Below, piece by piece: positions 1 through 2,202 of a stretch of DNA of 35,362 bases. This stretch comes from Chamaesiphon sp. 341R_metabat_111 (lineage in GTDB: Bacteria > Cyanobacteriota > Cyanobacteriia > Cyanobacteriales > Chamaesiphonaceae): NCBI GenBank assembly GCA_025351825.1, contig JANXVE010000179.1, forward strand, positions 1 through 35,362, read 5' to 3'. Every line of letters begins with the position of its first letter. Positions within the stretch are counted from its first letter, which is position 1. Below the pieces are notes generated by a model that had not been told where the DNA came from, did not search any database, and was given only the letters and a program-made list of their open reading frames with translations. A program made the translations under genes and the position numbers.

Positions 1-234
1 GACGAGAGGGGATTTCGAGCATTTCGATAATAACTGCTTTTTTGGATAAAAACAGTTTAACAGTTCTCCTCTCTTTTCTCCTCAACGCTATTCCTCATCA
101 GTCTTTGCTCGAATCTCTACGGACTTTTGTCCGTCAATCAGCTTTACAACACTAGAACGCGATGCTATGAAGAATTAGCAGTAGTGGAAGCGTATATAAA
201 ATCAGGAATTCAAGTTGCACCTGTGGTTCATTTC

Positions 235-282
235 GCGGATGAAATCGCGCTGAGGTTTCCTCAGCGTGCGTTTCACCAAGCA
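235..282. repeat. 48-bp palindromic element inserted in frame in the IS66 gene (copy A)
   Basis: An IS66 protein normally reads VVHF-DETG here. In this copy 16 extra codons separate VVHF from DETG. The insert has a perfect 8-bp stem, CGCTGAGG-TTT-CCTCAGCG (248-266). Outside it, the outer arms pair imperfectly: GGATGAAA on the left against TTTCACC on the right. Length is 48 bp, so the frame is kept. No clear target duplication is visible. Confidence 0.7.
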
Positions 283-873
283 GACGAGACTGGAATGCGA
301 GTCAAAAGTAAGTTGATGTGGTTACACGTAGCTTGTAATACCTGGTTAACCGCCTACTTTATCGATCCTAAACGGGGTCAGTTGGCAATGGATACGATTG
401 ATATTCTGCCTAATTTTGAAGGAGTTAGTGTTCATGATGGGTTAGCTAGTTATGGCAAATATGACAGCACCCATGCTCTTTGTAATGCCCATCATTTGCG
501 GGAACTACGATTTATTGTCGAACGTTACGAGCAAGATTGGGCTGGTGACCTGATGACACTGCTGGTAGAAATTAAAACGAATATCGCAATTGCTCAAGCA
601 GCCGGAGAGAAAAGCTTAACTCTCACCCAGCTAGCTGATCTTGAACGACGTTATCAGGAAATAATTGAAGCAGGATTAATTGCAAATCCACCCCCACCTA
701 TTGATGTAGATTTGCCACCGCGAAAAGGTCGTCGAAAGCAGAGTCCACCTAAGAATTTATTAGACCGCCTTCAATTACACCAATCTGCGGTTTTATTATT
801 CATGCATGATTGGCGAGTTCCGTTTGATAATAATCAGGCGGAGCGGGATGTGCGAATGATGAAATTAAAACAG

Positions 874-921
874 CGGCGCATCGAACGGGAGGTTCCCTCC
901 CGTTTGTGTGCGACAAGACAG
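874..921. repeat. 48-bp palindromic element inserted in frame in the IS66 gene (copy B)
   Basis: IS66 proteins normally read MMKLKQ-KISG here. Sixteen codons are inserted. The insert has the 9-bp stem AACGGGAGG-TTC-CCTCCCGTT (883-903) with a further CGCA/TGCG pairing outside it. The tetranucleotide ACAG stands on both sides (870-873 and 918-921) and may be a target duplication. It resembles copy A in length, in its core (GAGG-TTY-CCTC) and in the CAAG near the right end, but the arms differ. Confidence 0.7.
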
Positions 922-1171
922 AAGATCTCTGGTACTTTCCGTTCGATTGAAGGTGCCCAACAGTTTTGTCGGATTCGTGGCTACATCTCTACTCTTCGTA
1001 AACAGGGTCTTCAAGTTCTCGATTCCCTCAGGCTCGTTTTCATGGAAACGCCACTTTTTCCTACTCTTCAGCCTGAGTAGTTACAAAATAGAAGCTATAG
1101 GAGTATTACTGTCACTGGACGTTGAATCTAGAGAGCGATTGTCCGCTGTCCATATCCCCTAACAATTATCT

Positions 1172-1852: not shown

Positions 1853-1894
1853 GGTTAAGTCACAACTAGCACAAGCCAGTCGCTAGATTTAAAA

Positions 1895-1979
1895 CGGAAA
1901 GGGTGAGATTCGAACTCACGGAAGCTTGCACCTCATCCGATTTCAAGTCGGACGCATTCGACCACTCTGCCACCTTTCC
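1895..1979 (-). tRNA. tRNA-Ser (anticodon UGA)
   Basis: Read on the minus strand this folds as a class II tRNA. The acceptor stem pairs GGAAAGG with CCTTTCC, with discriminator G. The anticodon stem is TCCGA/TCGGA around loop CTTGAAA, which gives anticodon TGA. A long variable arm typical of serine tRNAs (GAGGTGCAAGCTTC) follows, then the T arm GTGAG-TTCGAAT-CTCAC. CCA is not encoded. The 3' end faces the mobile debris at 1-1801, as expected for a tRNA used as an integration neighbourhood. Confidence 0.95.
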
Positions 1980-2202
1980 AAATGTAAGTACTTCATATTA
2001 GCACGATCGAAGCAGATCTCGATCGAACCATCAAAATTCATCAGTGAGCTAACCAACCACAGCTCGCTGAAGATAGAACCTTCTTGAGCCTAGCCTGGGA
2101 GCTTGGACTGAGTGTATATGCTGAGGTGACTTGTCCAGTCGCTCGATCGTAAATTATCGCTCAAGCAGTAATTCGTGATATCGTCATTTTCTGGCAGATG
2201 TA

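Follow-up and report, generated by a model that had tools for sequence, protein, structure and literature searches.

Two 48-bp palindromic insertions in a truncated IS66-family transposase gene of Chamaesiphon are very probably copies of a genus-specific, putatively mobile hairpin repeat

Results

An IS66 remnant carrying two 16-codon insertions

The window analysed here is a stretch of 35,362 nucleotides from Chamaesiphon sp. 341R_metabat_111 (assembly GCA_025351825.1, contig JANXVE010000179.1, positions 1 to 35,362 of the forward strand). Positions 127-1080 (+) contain a 5'-truncated IS66-family transposase gene of 317 codons from a TTG, assigned by Pfam, NCBIfam and alignment with the relatives L029 and L030. 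The Pfam domain DDE_Tnp_IS66 was matched at 106.7 bits (cut-off 23.1) and the NCBIfam model transpos_IS66 at 179.5 bits, slightly below its cut-off of 180. About 210–230 N-terminal residues present in the frames of its relatives are missing, and of the regions that characterize a full-length TnpC (N-terminal part, zinc-finger region and DDE domain) the DDE part alone is found. When the N-terminal part of L029 was searched in the window's genome, a single match was obtained, with 28% identity and on a different contig. The gene is a truncated remnant. A tRNA-Ser (tga) gene lies downstream of it at 1894-1980 (-).

Alignment of the remnant with L029 (genome G007, 63% identity), L030 (G054, 61%) and L031 (42%), the only three homologues that could be aligned, revealed exactly two 16-residue insertions in the window gene, with all three relatives contiguous at both points, as the sequence-only reading of this DNA had proposed from the general IS66 pattern. 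The positions of the elements were set by comparison with other copies. The first, a class A palindromic element of 48 bp at 235-282 (+), is in frame, reads ADEIALRFPQRAFHQA and stands directly before the Asp of DETG, which we take to be the first catalytic residue of IS66 transposases; its boundary carries a one-G ambiguity (235-282 or 236-283). The second, a class B palindromic element of 48 bp at 873-920 (+), adds 16 codons in frame between MMKLK and QKISG. Its boundary is ambiguous within a shared ACAG, and the coordinates originally proposed, 874-921, describe the same insertion one base off, while those of the first insertion stood unchanged. In both cases the next base after the unit is G. 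Each isolated 48-mer folded into a hairpin better than all of 200 shuffles (z -3.8 for A and -4.5 for B). With about 10 flanking bases on each side the fold of element A was weaker (z -2.05, 7/200 shuffles equally good), and that of element B remained strong (z -3.6, 0/200).

A dispersed family of hairpin-forming units

Both elements share a layout with many other copies in the genome: GCGG (or GCGA), a stem arm, a 3-nt loop that is mostly TTY, a second arm and a terminal CAAG(A)CA, typically amounting to 48 bp. Three classes were named by eye, namely class A (GCGGATG..CACCAAGCA), class B (GCGGCGCATCGA..GACAAGACA) and class C (with TTTTTATT arms). Two covariance models, overlapping in their matches, were used to find copies, R1 for class A and R2 for classes B and C. 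The R2 consensus comprises 16 pairs and a 3-nt loop, and in its alignment of 10 sequences, chosen by similarity, 8 of the 16 pairs show two-sided changes that preserve pairing. The window's genome (G000) contains at least 16 copies by R1 and at least 71 by R2, and a second genome of the genus (G006) at least 60 and at least 124, respectively, with no more than 150 (or 99) candidates scored in each genome. The GAGG-TTY-CCTC cores that had drawn attention to both insertions are parts of a dispersed hairpin family. The bare core GAGGTTYCCTC is in twofold excess only (26 genome matches vs 13 for a reversed control pattern); most of these core matches have long arms with constant ends.

Lengths and flanks were taken from 264 elements, a selection of copies with extracted flanks that is smaller than the full set. 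Of 93 class B copies, 86 are exactly 48 bp long, as are 61 of the 88 in class A, and 30 of 38 class C copies measure 49 bp; these counts are approximate, since the boundary finder misreads some copies (e.g. L069, one L320 copy and L346). With this prevailing length of 48 bp, insertion of a class A or B unit lengthens a gene by 16 codons. Relative to mononucleotide shuffles, all six frames of class B are free of stops (expected 3.7, P 0.04), compared with three frames for class A (expected 3.2) and four for class C (expected 2.7, P 0.23). Stop-free frames were considered as an adaptation and set aside as weakly supported.

It is extremely unlikely that the 16-residue stretches are normal, lineage-specific sequence of an IS66 subfamily whose palindromes arose by chance. 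Such a reading could draw on the small number of homologues, three, that are close enough for alignment. It is refuted by the dispersed copies, with the same 48-mers occurring in unrelated genes and between genes, and by the empty sites described below; the lack of both insertions in every aligned homologue and the folding of both 48-mers also speak against it. The sequence-only reading had named two observations that would count against its own proposal, IS66 relatives carrying the same stretches and a genome without further copies of the palindromes; none of the three aligned relatives carries them, and further copies are numerous.

It had also pointed to a third small palindrome, of 14 bp at 120-133 (+), lying where IS66 homology begins. 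This palindrome is real and coincides with the start of homology because the gene is 5'-truncated there, but it is otherwise unremarkable, with 2 exact and 1 one-mismatch matches in the genome against 2 for the control. It was rejected as a family member, being ordinary by these counts, giving no match to the R2 model and showing no recognizable resemblance to the family.

Distribution in the genus

At E <= 1e-8, R2 elements were detected in all nine genomes of the genus (g1), with at least 9 to 80 per genome, in neither of two genomes of another genus in the family and in 1 of 49 others in the order. R1 elements were detected in 7/9 genomes of the genus, in 1/2 of the other genus (a partial match) and in 1/29 others. 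Most genomes compared are draft assemblies. The elements recognized by the R2 model (classes B and C) are genus-wide and hardly found outside the genus.

Filled and empty sites in sister species

Empty-site homologues were compared for IS66, recJ, the integrase and the CyRepA1-type genes. For the DNA-repair gene recJ, 24 loci were readable, with G005 lacking coverage. The site is filled in three species, by 48 nt in G003 (a bare class A unit), 78 nt in G000 and 102 nt in G006, and is empty (0 nt) in G001, G002, G004, G007 and G008; length differences at this point among 16 outgroup loci range from -3 to 21 nt. Alignment resolves the 78-nt insert into the 48-bp unit and about 30 nt lodged within it; the insert of G006 is longer by about another 24 nt. 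All three inserts are in frame, and the filled genes contain no stop over the part available, which for the G003 contig is residues 300-703 only. Deletion of an ancestral segment was rejected as the origin of the empty recJ sites, the element being missing in the 16 outgroup loci. The recJ case is the decisive evidence for in-frame insertion of the element into a gene.

In the integrase family, 2/9 loci are filled and 7/9 empty. Three class A sites were compared in three CyRepA1-type genes. At the first, G003 has the element, G002 lacks it and G004 carries a different insert; at the second, G002 has the element and G003 lacks it; the third is filled in G003 and G004, G002 has no coverage there, and this site has no empty homologue among these genes. 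Presence and absence at the same sites in sister species suggest that the repeats are mobile.

Insertion sites, flanks and nesting

Filled sites in recJ, the integrase and IS66 are longer than their empty counterparts by the length of the unit, with no target duplication beyond the ambiguous base or so. In heptamer tandems (tttggatttt/ggattttgga) and other dispersed repeats, inspection by eye showed that the flanks continue across the skipped unit. The combination of terminal inverted repeats and target-site duplication that defines MITEs was absent at the recJ, integrase, IS66 and heptamer sites. In 191 distinct flank sets, the unit is most often preceded by A (136 sets, with T in 45) and followed by G (112 sets, with A in 58); in classes B and C the preceding A may be part of the unit.

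Units also nest in one another, as judged by eye: class B was found within class C (L003) and within class A (L109 and L129). The loop of class A is occupied by other short repeats of about 30 nt in L076, L108 and L061, and likewise in L209, with about 24 nt more. Both orientations of the loop occur among the copies. The orthologous integrase genes L081 and L163 (G000 and G006) carry the same inserted element, with the loop AAA in one and TTT in the other, a difference that amounts to inversion of the loop in place.

Copies within genes and the reading frame

Of 179 copies, no more than 12 were located in an open reading frame extending at least 200 nt to either side, compared with 41% of random places (up to 3,000, from the same loci); in an enlarged set the count was 15/224. 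The elements mostly avoid genes. Domain searches, supplemented by orthology and alignment, identified the hosts of copies that are read through in frame, conserved genes such as those for RecJ, 5-oxoprolinase, NRPS, mannosidase and porin among them: RecJ (L061), a 5-oxoprolinase/hydantoinase (L161, where the copy separates the A part from the B part), an NRPS (L129, class A and B elements), an alpha-mannosidase (L174), a relaxase (L109, class A and B elements), an OprB porin (L108), tyrosine recombinases or integrases (L081, and L163 by orthology), a DDE transposase (L069), a second IS66 gene (L303), an NRPS-like protein (L288), CyRepA1-type plasmid replication proteins (L337 by NCBIfam; L320, twice, and L346 by alignment with L337) and a long protein without an assigned family (L336). 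Less sure are L020, which has no Pfam match, and L291, which falls before the likely start of its gene. In-gene elements are found in either orientation and in several phases.

For a test of frame, the coding frame of either flank was picked independently, and 248 of the 264 elements were tested. Twenty-three were flanked by coding sequence on this measure, of which 18 are in frame and 5 out of frame. These 23 leave out the two insertions of the window as well as L303, L291 and, at the main threshold, L161, whose flanking reading frame or score was too low. With a looser threshold, 26/250 were coding-flanked, 20/26 in frame and 6/26 out of frame, the extra out-of-frame row being L318. Earlier, smaller sets had given 11/12 in frame (179 elements) and 12/13 (224 elements), and the addition of 40 class A copies brought the frame-breaking cases. 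Random places scored 98.5% in frame, as expected of unbroken genes, and the elements score lower.

By eye, two of the out-of-frame copies lie outside genes, L068 upstream of a gene and L097 at a gene junction. The other three break genes: L331 is a 50-bp copy within a DDE transposase, L341 puts the frame of a transposase off by one, and L348, at 44 bp, interrupts a gene like that of L347. In L347 itself, a DUF2887 gene with Pfam matches on both pieces, the element is in phase, and counted as in frame, but contains a stop; L314, included at the looser threshold, shows the same arrangement. Since frame-breaking and stop-bearing copies exist, insertion is not frame-aware.

In three species, DUF2887-type genes carry a class A element at one shared position, a native GCGGATG, where it gives a stop or a shift (L314, G003:C108:1808-1856; L347, G005:C199:1933-1981; L348, G004:C111:27726-27770). 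Either the site was hit repeatedly, or the element was inherited along with a multi-copy gene.

The genes seen to be broken are transposases and DUF2887-type genes, with no recognized housekeeping gene among these few cases. This contrast between gene classes, drawn post hoc from few cases, is compatible with selection that operates once a copy has inserted. Lengths divisible by three were also compared by a Fisher test (14/14 in genes vs 129/209 elsewhere, p 0.0016); its set was hand-picked and predates the broken cases, and the result is not relied on.

The sequence-only reading had asked whether selection or a fixed element length explains why both insertions are divisible by three. Fixed length is the direct cause, because 86/93 class B and 61/88 class A copies measure exactly 48 bp. 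Selection plausibly acts afterwards in conserved genes. For the IS66 gene of the window its action is doubtful, because that gene is a truncated remnant, and the open frame there is most likely due to the fixed length of the elements rather than to selection for transposase function. That the frame has been kept because the transposase is functional and under selection is very unlikely: the 317-codon frame is open through both insertions and the DDE domain is strongly matched, but more than 200 N-terminal residues are gone with no close N-terminal part elsewhere in the genome, insertion A abuts the Asp of DETG, and units of both classes usually measure 48 bp in any context.

Discussion

Taken as a whole, the data are best explained, with little doubt on our part, by both stretches belonging to a genus-specific family of mobile repeats that are small, non-autonomous and hairpin-forming, and whose usual length of 48 bp adds 16 codons in genes. 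Copies that stop or shift a needed gene would be removed by selection and those that are read through would be kept; the copies remaining in conserved genes would thus be in frame because of this removal. Movement may proceed through a single-stranded DNA or RNA hairpin on which an enzyme supplied from another locus would act, a proposal prompted only by the conserved stem and the flipping loop.

Protein-coding palindromic inserts are best known from Rickettsia. The comparison with Rickettsia palindromic elements (RPEs) made by the sequence-only reading holds as an analogy, given in-frame palindromic repeats in unrelated genes together with empty and filled recJ and integrase sites. In a review of RPEs (PMC10969869) and in PMC3733652, these are described as palindromic repeats residing in frame in unrelated protein genes, DNA-repair genes included. 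The present elements likewise occur in frame in unrelated protein genes, although not every in-gene copy is readable. They are likened to RPEs by description, not by sequence, and differ from them in length (48 bp vs about 150 bp for the first-reported RPEs, according to PMC10969869), in having a cyanobacterial genus as host, in the nesting of units in one another and in the use of both orientations and several phases.

A second parallel comes from cyanobacteria themselves. The SDRs of Elhai et al. 2008 are reportedly units of 21-27 nt that form hairpins with compensatory changes and are nested in themselves and in heptamer repeats. We know of no emphasis on in-frame residence in conserved genes for the SDRs of Nostoc. 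Our elements resemble them, by description and not by sequence, in being very small, cyanobacterial, hairpin-forming and nested, and differ in length, at 48 bp. SDRs are also mentioned in PMC3116915. No description of the present hairpin family was found in the literature on in-frame palindromic elements in cyanobacteria and on Chamaesiphon repeats, in a search that left most subscription journals outside its coverage.

The elements might instead be REPs or REPINs of the GTAG or CGTC super-family, moved by a RAYT (Y1) transposase, an assignment that we consider rather unlikely. According to PMC3733652, GTAG and CGTC REPs are short, high-copy hairpins that are mostly intergenic. Copies inside genes occur in several bacteria, and many of these genes serve DNA synthesis or repair; GTAG repeats are present in cyanobacteria. 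The same source gives CGTC repeats stems of 8-9 bp and loops of 4-5 nt and lists TGTC and CCTC as tag variants. The present family shares the short hairpins, the high copy number and the mostly intergenic location with some copies inside genes, and the reverse complement of class B starts with TGTC, one of the listed variants. Its ends lack a GTAG tag, however, and the reverse complement of class A starts with TGCT. Its 16 consensus pairs and 3-nt loop are a longer stem and a smaller loop than those of CGTC repeats. REPINs are doublets of REPs with related RAYT genes nearby; both elements of the window occur singly, as do most of the copies extracted. Seven matches to Y1 transposases were found, in G000 and G006, and none of the loci retrieved around these matches contains an R1 or R2 element. 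Y1 transposases were rejected as the mover on this ground, and no mobilizing enzyme was found among the Y1 matches and their loci in these two genomes.

More speculatively, and with the odds against it, the 48-bp length and, for class B, the six open frames may have been shaped by life inside genes, which would make the family a recurrent source of 16-codon insertions, with the recJ loop grown stepwise by nested repeats to inserts of 48, 78 and 102 bp, all multiples of three. The mode of movement of elements of about 50 bp is constrained by the precision of the sites and their near-lack of target duplication. The filled and empty alleles of recJ and the integrase in a cyanobacterial genus are natural test pairs for the effects of inserts on protein folding and activity, and nesting in the recJ alleles hints at the sequence in which the insertions took place. 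Insertion into a further kind of repeat was also observed: the elements L006, L021, L023 and L161 are inserted into another dispersed palindrome, GTAGGGGYAATTCATGAATTRCCCCTAC.
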